Positions 114-14,945 of a stretch of DNA of 40,655 nucleotides are shown here, one piece after another; the first letter of the stretch is position 1, and each line of letters starts with the position of its first letter. The position numbers and the translations under genes are program-made. The DNA comes from a virus: positions 1 through 40,655 of IMG/VR virus record IMGVR_UViG_3300031839_000432. One strand, written 5' to 3'. The notes beneath the pieces were generated by a model. It was not told where the DNA came from and did not search any database. It saw only the letters and a program-made list of their open reading frames with translations.

Positions 114-904
114 CAGACTTTAAACCGGGGATCTATGAGGATCTCGACTACCCAACCTATGCGAGCATCACCGTAGACGGTCAACAAGCTTGGCGGTCAC
201 ATGACCTCACCTCGTTGATCAAATGCGCTTACAGTTGGAAGAATGCCAAGCCCATGACTGAATCACCCGCGCTTCTTGAGGGCCGGGTCCAGCACACGGT
301 TTTTCTTGAGCATCACAAATTCTTTGATGAGTTTGCGATAGAGCCAGAGCACATCAATCGACGCACGAAAGCTGGCAAAGAAGAGTACGAAGATTGGGTG
401 TCAGGTCTTGGCGACAAGACGCCTTGCAAGCAGGATCTGTATGACCTCTGCATGGAGCGCCGAGCTGCGCTTGAAGAGTTTATCCCCGGTCCTGACGATA
501 AGGTCGAGCTGACGCTGGTTTTTGAATGGTGCGGACAACCCTGCAAGGGCAAGCTTGACTGGTATACCGGGACTGACATTTGGGATCTAAAAACCTGCCG
601 TGATGCTTCGCCGCGTGGCTTTAAAAACGCCGTCAACTCGTTCAGGTATTACCAGCAAGCCGCCTTCTACATGGCAGCCGCTGAGTACCTCGGAATGCAG
701 TGTGATAAGTTTTATTTTTTGGCGCAGGAAAAAGCATACCCCTACCCATACGGCGTTTATACGCTCACTCAAGAAGCGATTGAGTATGGGCATGCCAAGA
801 ACCAGCAAGCGCTTAAGATCGGCTTGAAGTGCCGTGAGACCGGAGATTACAAACCGTTTAACAATGGTTTGATCACGGAGTTTAATCTTGCAGATCTCTG
901 GTGA
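110..904 (+). CDS. PD-(D/E)XK exonuclease, RecB / exodeoxyribonuclease VIII-like
   Basis: This 264-residue protein is probably a phage recombination or end-processing DNA exonuclease of the PD-(D/E)XK superfamily (the RecE C-terminal / DUF3799 type). The family signature is visible in order: Gly58-Arg-Val-Gln-His62 (the conserved GxxxH region), Glu139 in a beta strand, Lys148 and Asp150, the core Asp159-Leu-Lys161-Thr, and the Gln182...Tyr187 helix motif. These residues normally bind metal and cut the phosphodiester bond. The length fits stand-alone family members. The start is the ATG coupled to the upstream stop and preceded by GGAGGAG. A RecT-like annealing protein is the usual partner and may lie left of the window. 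The alternative is a RecB-like nuclease with a role in DNA repair. Family certain, exact role inferred. Confidence 0.9.
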   Translation: MTDFKPGIYEDLDYPTYASITVDGQQAWRSHDLTSLIKCAYSWKNAKPMTESPALLEGRVQHTVFLEHHKFFDEFAIEPEHINRRTKAGKEEYEDWVSGLGDKTPCKQDLYDLCMERRAALEEFIPGPDDKVELTLVFEWCGQPCKGKLDWYTGTDIWDLKTCRDASPRGFKNAVNSFRYYQQAAFYMAAAEYLGMQCDKFYFLAQEKAYPYPYGVYTLTQEAIEYGHAKNQQALKIGLKCRETGDYKPFNNGLITEFNLADLW

Positions 905-1094
905 GGATTTAGAGCGAGAAGAACGATGGGCGGCTGAGAAAAAATATTACGCTGCTCGATCTGTTTGGAAGCGCAGAAACCAACTGGTGCCGGGCAAAGG
1001 GTTTACTTGGGGTCAATGGTTTCAGCGCATGTTCGATGAAAACTTGGTTGAATACGCCGCTCGAAAAGCGAAGGAAAAATCAGAGACGCCTTAA
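888..1094 (+). CDS. small basic hypothetical protein
   Basis: This 68-residue protein has many Glu, Lys, Arg and aromatic residues, with a Trp-rich centre (FTWGQWFQRMF) and a helical, charged C-terminus. No domain is recognised. No in-frame ATG is available, so translation would begin at the TTG at 888, inside the last codons of the nuclease gene. That suggests coupling to the nuclease. Its 3' end overlaps by 15 bases the convergent gene at 1080-1256. It may be an accessory factor of the nuclease, but nothing in the sequence proves this. The non-ATG start makes it less certain than its neighbours. Confidence 0.55.
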   Translation: MQISGEDLEREERWAAEKKYYAARSVWKRRNQLVPGKGFTWGQWFQRMFDENLVEYAARKAKEKSETP

Positions 1095-1310: not shown

Positions 1311-1504
1311 CAACTTTCTCGGCGTTTCAGTTCCATGAAACAGTAATTGATTTCGTCCTGATATTGTCCTGACTTGATGTTGTCAGGCATTGCCTGAATC
1401 GCAGCTCGGCAATCATCGATGACGTACCGAAGCGATTCAATGGACCGGGTTTTGCACAGCTTTATGTAATCGCTGTGCCAGTTGCCGTTAGAGCTGATCA
1501 TCAC
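1310..1504 (-). CDS. hypothetical phage protein, 64 aa
   Basis: A small protein with an N-terminal aromatic part (NWHSDYIKLCKT) followed by two probable helices. The Ser-Ile-Glu-Ser-Leu-Arg and Cys-Arg-Ala-Ala-Ile-Gln-Ala-Met-Pro-Asp pattern resembles small phage proteins I recall, none with known function. The GTG at 1504 overlaps the stop of the upstream gene; an ATG is available one codon later. The gene is co-transcribed with 1501-2067 from the promoter at 2112-2154 and is closed by the terminator at 1284-1310. Confidence 0.7.
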   Translation of the reverse strand: MMISSNGNWHSDYIKLCKTRSIESLRYVIDDCRAAIQAMPDNIKSGQYQDEINYCFMELKRRES

Positions 1505-2067
1505 GCCACCTCCTCATCTTCTGCGTAATGCGCCACTGCCTTCGAGGGGCGCTTGTAAAATCCAAACTTCGGATCATCCTTGCTTGGCTCAAGCGTTGCG
1601 ATAAACTCAACAACATCGCCCTTGCTGACGCGACTAATTGAGCTAGGGACTGTGCCAAACACCTTAAATCCAGATTCGTCCTTCACCAGCATTTTGTAAA
1701 CAAGCGTGTTGTAGGCATAGCCATCGACGGTCTTGGTCATCAAGACTTTGCCTTTGACTGCGACTCGACCAGTCGGAACGGGTTCTGCTATCTCGGCTTC
1801 TGCCGCCCACTTAGCCTCTAACTCGGCCTTTCGTGCATCACGCTCGGCGTTACGCTTTGCCGCCGCTGCTGCTCGCTTCGCTTCCATAGCCTCGCGCTTC
1901 TCAGCAGACTTGGCTCGCGCCTTTGCTCGCGCCTCGGGGGAGGTGCTGTAAACAGCCACACCGCTTCCTTGGCACTTGAAACAAACACCGTTCTGATAGT
2001 AAGCAAAATACGAAATGTAACCTTTGCCTGTTGAGCACTTCGGGCAATCTTCAATATATTTAGCCAT
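1501..2067 (-). CDS. zinc-finger protein with Ala/Arg/Glu helix and OB-like C-terminus
   Basis: This 188-residue protein has three visible parts. Residues 8-36 hold two CxxC knuckles, Cys-Pro-Lys-Cys-...-Gly-Lys-Gly and Cys-Phe-Lys-Cys-Gln-Gly-Ser-Gly, like one zinc centre of the DnaJ cysteine-rich domain. Residues about 44-92 are a long Ala/Arg/Lys/Glu helix, probably coiled coil. The C-terminal half has alternating strands (KGKVLMTKTV, TLVYKMLV, GDVVEFIATL) that fit a small beta barrel of OB type. Such parts usually bind nucleic acid or a protein partner; the actual role is unknown. It starts at the ATG at 2067 after AAGGAG and is the first gene behind the promoter/operator copy at 2112-2154. 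Confidence 0.75.
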   Translation of the reverse strand: MAKYIEDCPKCSTGKGYISYFAYYQNGVCFKCQGSGVAVYSTSPEARAKARAKSAEKREAMEAKRAAAAAKRNAERDARKAELEAKWAAEAEIAEPVPTGRVAVKGKVLMTKTVDGYAYNTLVYKMLVKDESGFKVFGTVPSSISRVSKGDVVEFIATLEPSKDDPKFGFYKRPSKAVAHYAEDEEVA

Positions 2068-2111: not shown

Positions 2112-2154
2112 AGATTAGCATCTACCGTGTCGATGTACAACACTTTGCAACAAT
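2112..2154 (-). promoter_or_regulatory. promoter with embedded inverted-repeat operator, copy 1
   Basis: Minus strand: -35 TTGTAC (2135-2140), 17-base spacer, extended -10 TGC-TAATCT (2112-2117). The inverted repeat GTGTTG-N5-CGACAC (2127-2143) covers the -35 and the spacer. TTGCAAAG lies just upstream. The same block recurs at 4353-4369 and 4899-4915. It would drive the 2067-1310 operon. Confidence 0.75.
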
Positions 2155-2158
2155 TAAT

Positions 2159-3157
2159 TTAGGTACTTTTTGCGCCCACATTTGGGCCTTCAAGATGATA
2201 GTCCTTTAAGACCACGCCAAGCTTTGAGTCGCCTCTGGTGTGCTGCCCTATCCATGTGCGCTTGCGAAATGAGCCGTCATCGTTTCGCAACACTCGCCAG
2301 TGACCGCGCACTTGATGCAATCGCTTGCCGTAAAACTCGTCTCTCGGCTCTACCGGTTCTCGCATATCAATACTGTCTTTGGGTAGCTCGATGCGACATC
2401 GGTAGTAAGAATCATGCGGCACTATGCGAGGGTTCTTGCCTTTTCCTCTTTGTAGGACGCCAACCTTTTCATGCGTCACCCATGGATAGTTGAGGGTGAT
2501 CATTAGCATCGTGACAAACCGAATCAGTCTGCCCGGATGAAAGTCTTCGTTAAAAGAATCTTCCGAACGACAATACATTTCCTTGCGAACCAAATCAGTT
2601 GACCTGATCAATTTTAGGTAAGGGTCAGTATCAGTAGTTTGTGAAAATTCACACTTGACCCCAAAAGCTTGAATGGAATTTTGTTCTGCAAAAGATTTTT
2701 CAAGATGTGACTCGTTATTCTTTGCGAGCCTTCCAATCCACATGGCACTTGCTTGACGCTGAATTGTTACGCCTCGATCACAAAAATTTCCGTCCTTAAA
2801 AAACTGAAAGCTTATCTCGTGTCCAAAGTCTTCTTGTAGACAGCCAACCACCCCACCGTCTTCGTCAAGAAATTCAATCCACATGGTTTTGAATGGACCG
2901 CGAGCCTCAGTCATGACACCGGCAATAAGACGCCCATCCTCCCTCTGCATAACTGGTTTACTGTAAACATAATCAGAAAGCTTGGGATCGACATCGAACC
3001 GACGAGCAAGACGGATAGCCTTTTGCTCTTCAGCGGCAATTTTTTTAAAGCGTTGAGACTCAACCCGATCTTTTGCCGTGATTCCAAAATCAGGAACCCT
3101 GACCTTTGGCCGGTCAAGGTCATGCACTACCTTTGCGTGAAGCTCTCCTATTTGCAC
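2159..3157 (-). CDS. hypothetical phage protein, 332 aa
   Basis: No function is recognised. The preferred start is the GTG at 3157, which has AGGAG seven bases upstream; a TTG at 3175 would add six residues but has no such site. The protein is mixed in charge, with a Lys/Arg-rich helix at about residues 35-55. Its C-terminal region carries an Arg/His/Trp-rich segment (VRGHWRVLRNDDGSFRKR, then TWIGQHTRG) of a kind I have seen at the end of uncharacterised marine phage proteins. That may be a compact nucleic-acid- or metal-binding tail, which is inference. It follows 3160-3414 with a two-base gap, so the two are one operon with the ArdC-like gene. The promoter of the next unit begins right at its stop. 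Confidence 0.75.
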   Translation of the reverse strand: MQIGELHAKVVHDLDRPKVRVPDFGITAKDRVESQRFKKIAAEEQKAIRLARRFDVDPKLSDYVYSKPVMQREDGRLIAGVMTEARGPFKTMWIEFLDEDGGVVGCLQEDFGHEISFQFFKDGNFCDRGVTIQRQASAMWIGRLAKNNESHLEKSFAEQNSIQAFGVKCEFSQTTDTDPYLKLIRSTDLVRKEMYCRSEDSFNEDFHPGRLIRFVTMLMITLNYPWVTHEKVGVLQRGKGKNPRIVPHDSYYRCRIELPKDSIDMREPVEPRDEFYGKRLHQVRGHWRVLRNDDGSFRKRTWIGQHTRGDSKLGVVLKDYHLEGPNVGAKST

Positions 3158-3159
3158 AT

Positions 3160-3414
3160 TTACACTCCTAAACAAAGGTTAAAGGCATCGTTGACATCCC
3201 TAAGCTCTTCGGATGTGAAAAGGTCAATATCGTAATCTTCAGCAAAAGACATAGAGAGGTCACCTTTCTCGATCAAAGCTTTTTGTATCAGGCACCAAAT
3301 TGTTGCCAAGTTTTCTTCGGATAACTCAACCCATCTCAGGTCTAATTCTCCTCCACTGATAATAGTTGCGGGGGCATCGAAACCGAGTTGTGAAGCTGTT
3401 TTAGTTGATTTCAT
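3160..3414 (-). CDS. acidic hypothetical protein, 84 aa
   Basis: A small acidic protein (many Asp and Glu in the second half: FAEDYDIDLFTSEELRDVND). No domain is recognised. It starts at an ATG behind AAGGAGAGAGACAA, and this ribosome site follows directly on the hairpin that holds the stop of the ArdC-like gene. It is therefore likely translated together with that gene, from the promoter at 4337-4380. Small acidic phage proteins are often inhibitors of host DNA-binding enzymes. That is only a possibility here; the sequence shows no DNA-mimic signature beyond charge. Confidence 0.7.
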   Translation of the reverse strand: MKSTKTASQLGFDAPATIISGGELDLRWVELSEENLATIWCLIQKALIEKGDLSMSFAEDYDIDLFTSEELRDVNDAFNLCLGV

Positions 3415-3428
3415 TTGTCTCTCTCCTT

Positions 3429-3444
3429 GGCGGCTTACGCCGCC
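3429..3444 (-). promoter_or_regulatory. hairpin enclosing a stop codon
   Basis: Minus strand GGCGGC-GTAA-GCCGCC: a six-pair GC stem whose loop holds the TAA of the ArdC-like gene, followed at once by AAGGAG, the ribosome site of the 84-aa gene. No T run follows, so it is not a terminator. It could tune re-initiation or protect the 3' end of the upstream message. Confidence 0.5.
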
Positions 3445-4304
3445 TCCTCTTGTGATTGTGGTTGCAAGTCTTCGATAAACTTGACTGCTTTCTCAGCGGC
3501 TGCTGCTGCCTTGAAGATTGCTTTGGGATCATCCTTCAGAACCTTCAACCAGTTGTTGAGATACTTCGCGTGGTCTTCGCGTGGGCTTGGTGAGATGTCG
3601 AGCAGAGCGCACTGAAACGCTGACGCCAGCTCAGCAACTAACTCCTCCATCGCGTACCCTTCAGAGCCGAAACCGTTCTTCATGCTCAACCGGTCGAGGC
3701 GTGACTTGTTGCCAGTCCAGTGAGCAAGCTCGTGGAGCAGTGTGCTGTAGTAGCACTCGGTTGAAGTTGACGTTGGCGTTGCGGTGAATACTTCGCGCAT
3801 TGGGATTTGTATGTAGTCAGCAGCCGGGCTGTAGAAAGCGCGAGCCGAGTGATCGGTTCTGACGATAGCGCCAGTGGCTGCAACCCAAGCATCAGCCGCC
3901 TCGACAATTTCAGTCTCGTCTTTCTTGACACCTTTCTTGCTGATCTTGTCAGCATACTCGCCGTCCACTTGGTTTGCAGAGAAAACCGAGAAGGTCTTGA
4001 GCATTGGGATCATCTTCTTCTCGCCAGAGTCCTTATCTTTGATCTCGATCTTTTTGAAGAGAACGATTGAAGTACCTTTCTCGCCCTTGCGAACCTGACA
4101 GCCTTTACCCTGCCACTGCTTGTAGGTAGCCCAGTAGCTTCCGGTGAAGCCAAGGATCAAGACGTTGATGCCTTGGTAACGATGACCGCTCACTGCGTTG
4201 CGTGGTAAACCGAAGCCGTCTCCGGTCATTGGGTTGAGCCAGTTGCTGCCAGCAGTTTCCATCTGAGCGATGATCTTGGCGGTGATTTCTGCGTGTGCTT
4301 TCAT
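3435..4304 (-). CDS. ardC: ArdC-like antirestriction protein with zincin metallopeptidase domain
   Basis: This 289-residue protein has the two domains of plasmid ArdC: an N-terminal single-strand-DNA-binding domain (about residues 1-130, DUF1738 type, with the conserved FGLPRN, YQGIN and KGCQVRKGEKGT segments) and a C-terminal zinc metallopeptidase-like domain. The latter carries His191-Glu-Leu-Ala-His195 and a downstream Glu-Glu-Leu-Val-Ala-Glu helix (about 220-225) for the third zinc ligand. In plasmids ArdC shields incoming DNA from host restriction; in a phage it probably acts early in infection. The ATG at 4304 is preferred because it has GAGGAAG upstream and lies just after the promoter -10 at 4337-4342; a start at 4349 would lie within the promoter. 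All metal ligands look intact. Confidence 0.9.
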   Translation of the reverse strand: MKAHAEITAKIIAQMETAGSNWLNPMTGDGFGLPRNAVSGHRYQGINVLILGFTGSYWATYKQWQGKGCQVRKGEKGTSIVLFKKIEIKDKDSGEKKMIPMLKTFSVFSANQVDGEYADKISKKGVKKDETEIVEAADAWVAATGAIVRTDHSARAFYSPAADYIQIPMREVFTATPTSTSTECYYSTLLHELAHWTGNKSRLDRLSMKNGFGSEGYAMEELVAELASAFQCALLDISPSPREDHAKYLNNWLKVLKDDPKAIFKAAAAAEKAVKFIEDLQPQSQEEAA

Positions 4305-4336
4305 GGTTACTTCCTCTTTGCGTTTTTGATGAGGAA

Positions 4337-4380
4337 ATTGTACTACCATTCCGTGTCGTTGTGCAACACTTTGTACAAAC
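4337..4380 (-). promoter_or_regulatory. promoter with embedded inverted-repeat operator, copy 2
   Basis: Minus strand: -35 TTGCAC (4361-4366), 18-base spacer, -10 TACAAT (4337-4342). The operator GTGTTG-N5-CGACAC lies at 4353-4369. It drives the ardC-like operon; transcription should start near 4330, leaving a leader of about 26 bases before the ATG at 4304. Confidence 0.75.
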
Positions 4381-4402
4381 TTATTTGCAATTAATTTCAG
4401 GC

Positions 4403-4428
4403 AAAAAAATGGGGCCTTGCAGCCCCTC
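4403..4428 (-). terminator. rho-independent terminator after the 4514-4852 gene
   Basis: Minus strand: GGGGC-TGCAAG-GCCCC stem-loop (4411-4426) followed by A and seven T residues (4403-4409). It closes the single-gene unit 4852-4514, about 85 bases after its stop. The stretch 4429-4513 between stop and hairpin holds nothing else I can recognise. Confidence 0.85.
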
Positions 4429-4513
4429 GGTGTCAGTTATACTTAACCCTATTGTGGCCGGGCTTTAACACACTGGAAAGTTCAGGCCGAATTGTTTAAC
4501 AATACTTACGCGG

Positions 4514-4852
4514 TTAGCTGAGGCCCTTGTCTCGCAGCATTTCCAAATATTCCTGACCACCGGCATCATTGGTCTCGTAAAAACCGAACACTTCCCAATT
4601 GTCCCATTCAGACATTATGGGTTTTCCAGCCGACTCCCACCTAGCAATGTCGCGTTTAAAATTTTTCCAAGCTTCGGCAACTGACACTCTGTTTAACAAA
4701 ACTCTCCACTCACATCTCGTGTACGGTTTACCTAAAGCTGAAACGCCGTTTACTAAATAACCATTGATAGGCATGTATGGGGCAAAACCAGCGTTCTTTG
4801 CAAAGTGCAGTTCTGCGGCAAGTTTTTGCGATTCGGTTAATTTTGCAGTCAT
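4514..4852 (-). CDS. hypothetical protein, 112 aa, own promoter and terminator
   Basis: An unrecognised protein with many aromatic residues (NGYLVNG, EWRVLLNRVSVAEAWKNF, EWDNWEVFGFYET). It is mixed alpha/beta by appearance and has no metal or nucleotide motif. It starts at an ATG with AGGAATGAG upstream. The gene is a complete unit: promoter/operator copy 3 (4884-4926) before it and the intrinsic terminator 4403-4428 after it. Being singly transcribed under the same control as the ArdC-like gene suggests an early function acting on the host or on DNA, which is inference from context. Confidence 0.75.
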   Translation of the reverse strand: MTAKLTESQKLAAELHFAKNAGFAPYMPINGYLVNGVSALGKPYTRCEWRVLLNRVSVAEAWKNFKRDIARWESAGKPIMSEWDNWEVFGFYETNDAGGQEYLEMLRDKGLS

Positions 4853-4883
4853 GACTCATTCCTTTATTTAAGTGAATAAGCAA

Positions 4884-4926
4884 ACCTTAACAGATCCCGT
4901 GTCGATGTGCAACACCTTGCAAACAA
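4884..4926 (-). promoter_or_regulatory. promoter with embedded inverted-repeat operator, copy 3
   Basis: Minus strand: -35 TTGCAC (4907-4912), 17-base spacer, -10 TAAGGT with an upstream TG (4884-4889). The operator GTGTTG-N5-CGACAC lies at 4899-4915. It drives the 112-aa gene. Confidence 0.7.
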
Positions 4927-4928
4927 GC

Positions 4929-5645
4929 CTATTCCACAACCTCCTCGTACAAATGGATCGCTCGGTTGCGGTCATACAGCCAAAAAACCAAAAGGTAGCG
5001 ATCACCACTTTCGACCGGCAAACCTCGATGCAAGTTTGTGAAGCCGGGAAAGATTAATGCGTGACCAGATGGCAGCGGCTTCAATACACCGTGGTTGTGA
5101 AACTCAGTGCCGCCGCCTTTATAGTCGCCAGTGTTCAGCGGTATCACCACGCTAACGTCAGCGCTTTCATCGTGGTGCCAAGCGCCTTGTTTTTTATCTC
5201 GCAGGTTGTAGTTTGCAATCTGCACACTGGCGATCTCGTTCACCTCTCTTTGATAGAGAGAGAAGATGATTGGCGCTAAAACATTCTGCACCACATGCCA
5301 CATGTTTCGATACAACTCCGGCACATGCTCCTTCAAAACGATTTCAGGAATCTGCCTCAACTCATCCTCATCGGCGTTTGGTTCAAAACCAATGATCCGC
5401 CGCATGTTGTCGATCTCCTCACAGAGCATCTTGCAATACTGTCTGCGAAATATCGGCACCCGATAAATCTCTGGCCAGATCTTTTTGGTTAATTTTTGAA
5501 TCGGCATTTCGCCAAGATTTTCTTGGCCACCTTTTGCTCGATACCGGGCAATGGCTGGGATGGAATCTTGAACCGCCTGATACACCGGCTGGTTCAAAAA
5601 CCAATGTGACTGCATTGACAGCATATAATTTTTAAGCGAATACAT
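4929..5645 (-). CDS. 2-oxoglutarate/Fe(II)-dependent dioxygenase (prolyl-4-hydroxylase type)
   Basis: This 238-residue protein carries the full 2OG-Fe(II) oxygenase site in its C-terminal half: His157-x-Asp159 (in WHHDESADVSVVIPLN), the distal iron ligand His206 (TNLHRG) and Arg216, which binds 2-oxoglutarate (ESGDRYLLVFW). The Gly-Gly-Gly-Thr-Glu-Phe turn and the PSGHALIFPG strand also match the jelly-roll fold. The N-terminal 100 residues are helical and family-specific. The enzyme would hydroxylate a protein, nucleic acid or small molecule; the substrate cannot be told. Such oxygenases are frequent in marine phages. It diverges from the regulator at 5702 across about 56 bases. No good ribosome site precedes the ATG, so the start is less sure than the domain. 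Confidence 0.88.
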   Translation of the reverse strand: MYSLKNYMLSMQSHWFLNQPVYQAVQDSIPAIARYRAKGGQENLGEMPIQKLTKKIWPEIYRVPIFRRQYCKMLCEEIDNMRRIIGFEPNADEDELRQIPEIVLKEHVPELYRNMWHVVQNVLAPIIFSLYQREVNEIASVQIANYNLRDKKQGAWHHDESADVSVVIPLNTGDYKGGGTEFHNHGVLKPLPSGHALIFPGFTNLHRGLPVESGDRYLLVFWLYDRNRAIHLYEEVVE

Positions 5646-5701: not shown

Positions 5702-5869
5702 ATGGATACAGAGGCACAAGTCGCTCGTCAAAGAAAGAGCCTTGCTGTCGATCAAAAAACTTATGACCTGTTGCAAGAAGTTTGTTTTGAAGAAAGGCGA
5801 ACTAGGATTGAGCAGTTAAAAATTTTGATCGAGAAAGAGCATAAGCGCATCTTTGGCGAGAGTAATTAG
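5702..5869 (+). CDS. small ribbon-helix-helix-like DNA-binding protein
   Basis: This is a 55-residue protein starting at the ATG at 5702, which has AGGAG eight bases upstream; a more distal start at 5666 would overlap the promoter. After a polar N-terminus come a short strand (KSLAVD), a helix (QKTYDLLQEVCFEE), a turn and a second Lys/Glu-rich helix (IEQLKILIEKEHKRIFG). That order and length fit a ribbon-helix-helix (Arc/MetJ/CopG type) repressor. It probably regulates its own promoter through the palindrome at 5666-5675 and perhaps the divergent oxygenase gene. The fold assignment is by pattern only. The next gene starts directly after its stop. Confidence 0.6.
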   Translation: MDTEAQVARQRKSLAVDQKTYDLLQEVCFEERRTRIEQLKILIEKEHKRIFGESN

Positions 5870-14637: not shown

Positions 14638-14945
14638 GGCGTACTCACCGTTATGTTGCCCAACGCGCTCGTCATTTGAACGCCGGTTGGGTAGGTTTGA
14701 TGTTCATACAGATTCCTGAGCTGATTACCATCAAACGCTTGATGAATTGATTCGGTCGAATTAAATATTATCGCACCGGTTGCAAATTGTAACTGAGCAA
14801 TTTGCTCATTATTAAAATGCGGGGATATCGTGATATCCACTGACCCTAAGTTTATCTCAAGAATCCGCACAAGGCGATTGTAGGTGTCTTGAGTAACAAA
14901 TTCCTTGAGTTCGAGGGGTAACCTCGTCTCCAGAAGCTTGCTCAT
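14634..14945 (-). CDS. small virion-cluster protein, 103 aa
   Basis: No domain is recognised. The N-terminal half is helical (LPLELKEFVTQDTYNRLVRILEINL). The second half is rich in Asn, Gln and Thr and contains the segment SIHQAFDGNQLRNLYEHQTYPTG. It resembles small proteins next to tail genes in marine phages as I recall them. It overlaps both neighbours by four bases, so it is translated with the large tail protein upstream and the 718-aa protein downstream. It may be a tail accessory or completion protein (inference). Confidence 0.65.
   Translation of the reverse strand: MSKLLETRLPLELKEFVTQDTYNRLVRILEINLGSVDITISPHFNNEQIAQLQFATGAIIFNSTESIHQAFDGNQLRNLYEHQTYPTGVQMTSALGNITVSTP

Follow-up and report, generated by a model that had tools for sequence, protein, structure and literature searches.

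The early region of IMGVR_UViG_3300031839_000432, a virus record from IMG/VR, raises the question of why three transcription units start from promoters with the same block of sequence, and which factor reads that block. The record is a linear fragment of 40,655 bp and was analyzed over its full length (further referred to as the window). Judged from their sequence, the three sites are almost certainly copies of a shared promoter cassette, which is probably read by a dedicated phage regulator. The best explanation overall, and in our view a likely one, is a family-wide early/accessory promoter that is set as one regulon by a phage protein.

Three promoters with a shared block

A preliminary description of this DNA had listed three minus-strand promoters of the sigma-70 type that share a block, with spacers of 17, 18, and 17 bp, ahead of a zinc-finger-like gene, an ArdC gene, and a gene for a 112-aa protein. 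Coordinates, spacers, and downstream genes all agree with our analysis. The promoters are organized as follows, with the hexamers read from the minus-strand sequence:

4884..4926, minus strand: block promoter 1 (112-aa gene), TTGCAC-17-TAAGGT (4912-4884); upstream TTTGCAA, -35 TTGCAC at 4912-4907, block CGACACGG at 4904-4897, -10 TAAGGT at 4889-4884
4337..4380, minus strand: block promoter 2 (ArdC unit), TTGCAC-18-TACAAT (4366-4337); upstream box TTTGTACAAA, -35 TTGCAC at 4366-4361, block CGACACGG at 4358-4351, -10 TACAAT at 4342-4337, spacer 18
2112..2154, minus strand: block promoter 3 (zinc-finger unit), TTGTAC-17-TAATCT (2140-2112); upstream TTGTTGCAAA, -35 TTGTAC at 2140-2135, block CGACACGG at 2132-2125, -10 TAATCT at 2117-2112

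A pattern scan with GTGTYG-N5-CRACAC gave exactly three matches in the window (2127-2143, 4353-4369, and 4899-4915), all on the minus strand, and the 12-bp core ACAWCGACACGG is found at the same three places, with about 0.01 occurrences expected from simple base counting. With up to two mismatches, the pattern has 13 sites in the window against 4.4 expected, and at least 13 were reached in none of 100 shuffles. The block lies 56-69 bp from the start codon at the three sites. No block was found upstream of late genes within the window, and the sole weak extra copy (14960, three mismatches) is located within a structural gene; this degenerate copy and the one at 14708 of the related contig G031, both in the conserved structural gene, look like coding coincidences. 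A generic promoter scan of the window listed only the ArdC promoter among the three, because the other two are too distant from the consensus.

The proposed promoter would combine sigma-70 hexamers (TTGCAC-17/18-TAnnnT) with two further conserved elements, the box TTTGTRYAAA located upstream at about -50 to -41 and the asymmetric spacer block CGACACGG. Each copy would start a small cargo unit, some of these units being separated by terminators.

The conserved block is asymmetric

The preliminary description had interpreted the shared block as a palindromic operator. We aligned 54 non-redundant TTG-type sites that were selected for CGACACGG, so that these eight columns, the TTG, and the -10 TAnnnT are fixed by selection. 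The family consensus (TTTGTRYAAA-N3-TTGCACAWCGACACGG-N7-TAnnnT) comprises the right half of the palindrome and the -35 region, and the 54 sites have upstream TTGTRYAAA (1.3-1.5 bits at AAA), TTGCACAW, and the -10 TAnnnT. The left triplet is CAC in 10 sites, GTG in 9, GAC in 6, and TAG in 5, followed by TAC, GGG, and others, and the three left-arm positions carry 0.07-0.62 bit. Close relatives of the window (L017, L068, and L069) have CTG or GTA in the left arm with an unchanged right half. Since the left arm varies while the right half is kept, we read the element as a promoter whose spacer holds an asymmetric block and not as a symmetric operator, and the conservation of both half-sites that marks a palindromic (dimer) operator is not seen in the 54 sites. 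The search for further copies proposed in the preliminary description yields only three in the window and, in relatives, a block of which the right half is conserved.

The position of the block relative to the hexamers is not fixed throughout the family. Class 2 sites (TTTGTRYAAARNTGTAGACAWCGACACGG-n5-TGAgannaT) keep the block, but their likely sigma-70 hexamers are shifted by 1 bp with the gain of an extended -10. A further promoter variant has the block displaced by about 2 bp, and one clade has CGACACGA as its block form. The block is therefore separable from the hexamers. Relatives with a lower GC content carry TTTGTRYAAA-N3-TTGCACA-TTTGT. The -35 and -10 boxes at a spacing of 17-18 bp speak against a promoter for a single-subunit, phage-encoded RNA polymerase, which would lack such separate boxes; part of the ORFs were scanned for a polymerase gene.

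In several divergent promoter pairs, both members have the block or a variant close to it. Divergent promoters 35-45 bp apart, resembling a compact two-way switch, are located at L077 9152-9187 (with the close block variant TTGCATATGGGCACGG), L038 14263-14309, L095 1487-1530, and L110 2079-2122.

Placement and distribution in related phages

In six contigs, no 8-mer is more enriched ahead of genes than CGACACGG (17/453 upstream windows, 0/249 coding windows); as these contigs had been gathered by motif, the enrichment shows placement rather than independent discovery. Ten large contigs contain 28 exact blocks, 24 of which are followed by a -10 box and the start of an open reading frame (ORF), against none for two control patterns. 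These 24 have the features of a multi-copy conserved viral promoter: an intergenic position, hexamers, and orientation toward a gene. Two selections were made without the block. Loci picked only by a small ribbon-helix-helix (RHH) protein, discussed below, contain a site with at most one mismatch in 47 of 80 cases, with 102 sites in total versus 23 for the reversed control pattern. Sites picked only by the upstream box plus TTGCACA have a -10 box at the right spacing in 14/33 cases; several of these have CGACACG and three have TTTGT. The orientation of the block promoters is fixed, with the start codon at a median of 58 bp downstream, and terminator-like hairpins precede 9/69 of them (none in shuffles).

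IMG/VR was scanned twice, with the palindromic form, part of whose matches are GC-rich chance matches, and with the right half plus a -10 box at fixed spacing. The latter, stringent pattern retrieved 86 contigs, many of them from aquatic phages. The proposed reuse of one cassette for several early/accessory units is thus supported and extends to relatives. The large block-bearing contigs (G001, G022, G024, G028, G031, G337, G342, and others) and the window form one family of phages of about 50-55 kb, with TerL about 82% and the major capsid-like protein about 90% identical to those of the window. The four best TerL relatives in INPHARED are 023Pt_psg01, HTVC027P, HTVC023P, and DSL-LC04, and the block was not found in the first 50 kb of any of these four. 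A kinship of the HMO-2011 type, guessed from the length of about 55 kb, was set aside, as TerL points to relatives of HTVC023P, HTVC027P, and DSL-LC04. A blastn search of INPHARED with the 54-nt consensus gave no match in cultured phages, a weak test with so short a query. The form of the block is clade-specific among phages. At the level of sequence, the data show that the block is conserved, that it goes together with sigma-70 hexamers and with start codons, that its cargo is exchangeable, and that it is used family-wide.

Genes behind the block promoters

The genes of the early region that are relevant to the cassette are the following:

4514..4852, minus strand: 112-aa ORFan, cargo of promoter 1
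4411..4426, minus strand: intrinsic terminator GGGGCTGCAAGGCCCC-ATTTTTTT, separating the 112-aa unit from the ArdC promoter
3435..4304, minus strand: ArdC-like antirestriction protein of 289 aa, encoded first behind promoter 2 (Pfam ArdcN 7.8e-29, MPTase-PolyVal 1.7e-45)
2159..3414, minus strand: rest of the ArdC unit, encoding proteins of 84 aa (3160-3414) and 332-338 aa (2159-3175) with no function assigned
1501..2067, minus strand: zinc-finger-like (CxxC) protein of 188 aa, encoded first behind promoter 3 (its PHROG matches have no known function)
5702..5869, plus strand: Arc-like RHH protein of 55 aa, candidate regulator, with its own promoter lacking the block
888..1094, plus strand: protein of 68 aa that overlaps the end of the exonuclease VIII gene, second regulator candidate

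The 112-aa and ArdC units look independently transcribed because of the intrinsic terminator between them. A start of ArdC at 4349 (longer ORF) is unlikely and would fall within the promoter. The 188-aa protein matched no Pfam family. A 2OG-Fe(II) oxygenase-like protein (4929-5645, minus strand), divergent from the RHH gene, is encoded family-wide at 60-74% identity. L074, a contig nearly identical to the window, continues beyond its left arm with genes for a helix-turn-helix (HTH)-DUF3310 protein, a possible single-stranded DNA-binding protein, a primase/helicase, and a small-terminase-subunit-like protein.

Across the family, the cargo set consists of 210 promoter-proper sites with an ORF from 146 loci, some of which overlap on the same contig. 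The first genes behind these sites form 62 single-linkage families, including ArdC, an SNF2-like helicase, HD_4 phosphohydrolases, the zinc-finger protein, a YNRVRRTC protein, and many ORFans, although some small cargo ORFs are possibly miscalled. Reused before dozens of unrelated small genes throughout the family, the promoter therefore marks a phage-specific gene set. This set, which a phage protein probably switches, includes at least one anti-restriction gene.

The 77-aa KKxxYNRVRRTC protein (L038 14359-14589; L088 5347-5577; G001 46409-46642) is often encoded first behind a block promoter. It has a confident alpha-beta-beta-beta-alpha model, for which no structural match was found. Directly 3′ of its gene lies a serine recombinase gene followed by tail-fiber-like genes in a block-led unit (G001 46639-47430; G024 4032-4829; G031 41984-42781), a possible arrangement for tail-fiber switching.

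Candidate regulators

We propose that the host RNA polymerase holoenzyme would fire the block promoters early, and that a phage-encoded DNA-binding protein would read the block and/or the upstream box and so set the promoters as one regulon. Its action would most likely be repression, with the protein covering the spacer and the upstream box and shutting strong early genes off. With the same geometry, Arc controls the ant promoter of phage P22, and Aca proteins control the promoters of acr genes.

The best candidate in the window is the RHH protein (5702-5869), whose link to the block is putative and which we equate with the dedicated regulator only tentatively. An RHH fold is predicted: the best of five AlphaFold2 models has a pLDDT of 84 (60-68 for the other four), Foldseek probabilities reach 0.98 with Arc, MatP, and CopG as top matches and omega structures also among them, and DSSP assigns two helices to the monomer model, the strand forming in the dimer only. 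Relatives are encoded by 172/193 stretches matched by its peptide patterns, and residues R11, K12, S13, L14, A15, and D17 do not vary among 26 diverse members. It is present in 10/10 large block-bearing contigs and absent from the four block-less TerL relatives. The preliminary description had named this protein as a possible repressor; the Arc-like fold agrees with the RHH-like assignment made there, and the connection to the block is putative.

Several points weigh against a regulon governed by this protein. Being short, it has Foldseek matches with E-values of 0.3-1, and it has no Pfam match. Its invariant strand is the same across phages with CGACACGG, CGACACGA, and TTTGT variants, and six relatives assigned to the block-less class have retained it as well, a split that is imperfect since G335 (block-less class) has a single exact core ACAACGACACGG and G336 (block-bearing class) has variants. 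No block was found in promoters of the RHH gene, which rules out autoregulation via the block. The RHH protein may instead read the upstream box plus TTGCACA, as both are shared by the block-bearing and block-less groups. Octamers resembling TTGYRCAA occur upstream of the RHH gene in 6/25 cases versus 4/83 control regions, a suggestive result only, given that the pattern was chosen post hoc.

The 68-aa protein (888-1094), which has no known function, tracks the block (9/10 block-bearing versus 0/6 block-less contigs). Two further candidates were rejected. The N-terminal part of the HTH-DUF3310 protein (L074 9812-10261, minus strand) is not common to all block-bearing genomes; this protein has an HTH-like N-terminal extension, and the extensions of other family members differ. 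The YNRVRRTC protein is present in 7/10 block-bearing contigs, the other three appearing to lack the region, and its model is without a structural match.

Alternative explanations

The main rival is a strong extended promoter with no dedicated regulator, in which the block and the upstream box would optimize how the host holoenzyme binds or leaves the promoter, a role proposed for conserved flanks in T4 early promoters. The constant association of the block with sigma-70 hexamers, the resemblance of the A-rich upstream box to an UP element, and the candidate status of the proposed regulator all fit this view. It does not account for the retention of the block sequence where the hexamers shift by 1-2 bp, nor for block-less promoters in the same phages, such as that of the RHH gene, and recognition of an 8-bp sequence in that part of the spacer is not known for RNA polymerase. 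We therefore consider it rather unlikely, though more deserving of attention than the readings that follow.

A host transcription factor could read the block if the phages had copied a host regulatory site. In favor of this reading, many phages that possibly share hosts keep the same block. One genome outside the viral records also carries it: the divergent promoter pair of the family occurs at L084 305-340, on a 7-kb contig of the gammaproteobacterial metagenome-assembled genome H12SWP_bin.13, which is either a hint of the host or a binning artefact. None of 294 other genomes from the order to which this sole block-carrying genome belongs has the block (one order covered). A species-wide genome scan, made with the palindromic form and thus too narrow, gave two contigs, one of them the same phage-like contig. 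Among everything searched, the block appears to be restricted to these phages and looks phage-specific, and its form differs between phage clades. A host factor is accordingly improbable.

Still less probable is that GTGTYG-N5-CRACAC serves as a symmetric operator for the repressor dimer of a lysogeny or early-to-late switch. The palindrome is perfect at all three window sites and GTG is the second commonest left triplet, but the left-arm variation described above, including the close relatives with an intact right half, contradicts it. As for the lysogeny switch suggested in the preliminary description, or an operator array of the CI or stoperator type, no integrase or CI-like repressor gene was seen among the genes examined (part of the ORFs, on fragmentary contigs), and the serine recombinase of relatives adjoins tail-fiber genes. 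Replication iterons or a packaging signal, which would also be short, repeated, and conserved in a phage early region, can be dismissed almost entirely, since the copies form no tandem array but are dispersed over separate transcription units and tied to sigma-70 hexamers and start codons at fixed orientation and distance.

Relation to known systems and significance

Multi-copy conserved viral promoters are already known. In SIRV2 and other archaeal viruses, an early-gene regulatory motif, associated with Aca8, was used to predict further anti-defense genes (PMC11065993). There, too, one conserved strong-promoter sequence precedes many small early genes, including known anti-defense genes, and a small viral regulator is proposed. 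The SIRV2 system differs in its archaeal BRE/TATA promoters, in Aca8, and in a motif specific to each virus, whereas the present phages have bacterial sigma-70 promoters, a family-wide block, a candidate regulator, and presumed early expression. The ESAS of cluster K mycobacteriophages is a conserved sequence of about 46 bp with SigA-like -35 and -10 boxes at 17-18 bp and several intergenic copies per genome, the role of which is unclear (PMC11373665). It contains an imperfect inverted repeat of 15-17 bp, pairs with SAS by start codons, and belongs to temperate phages; in our family no such repeat is kept, and what is conserved is an asymmetric block within the spacer. The intergenic repeats of halovirus HF2 likewise carry promoters, with activity shown in reporter assays and conservation across the virus genus, but these are haloarchaeal promoters, and the part of that report considered here argues for no phage regulator (PMC8707807).

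Arc is a small phage RHH protein (structure 1par), and its operator sits in an early promoter between the -35 and -10 boxes, whereas here many promoters per genome are involved, RHH binding is putative, and Pfam detects no sequence similarity. Aca repressors also act on the strong early promoter of anti-defense genes with an operator-like element (for example, PMC9001735). In those systems, HTH proteins encoded beside acr bind inverted repeats, in contrast to an asymmetric block spread over many loci for which no HTH partner was found. The new aspect is an asymmetric, spacer-embedded block that is kept throughout a family of uncultivated aquatic phages while its cargo is exchangeable; a limited literature search found no published description of the motif.

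It is possible, albeit rather doubtful, that the small RHH protein, with or via the spacer-embedded block, sets the timing of several promoters in each genome as a regulon of the whole phage family, that any gene behind the promoter thereby joins a timed counter-defense set, and that the promoter could then predict anti-defense genes in uncultivated aquatic phages. If the regulon exists as proposed, its signature of about 28 bp would make early, probably host-facing genes searchable in uncultivated aquatic phages, where about 60 families of mostly uncharacterized first genes share their promoter with ArdC, a known anti-restriction protein. It would also offer a testable regulator and enable promoter-based discovery of anti-defense genes in bacterial phages, as has been done for archaeal viruses (PMC11065993).

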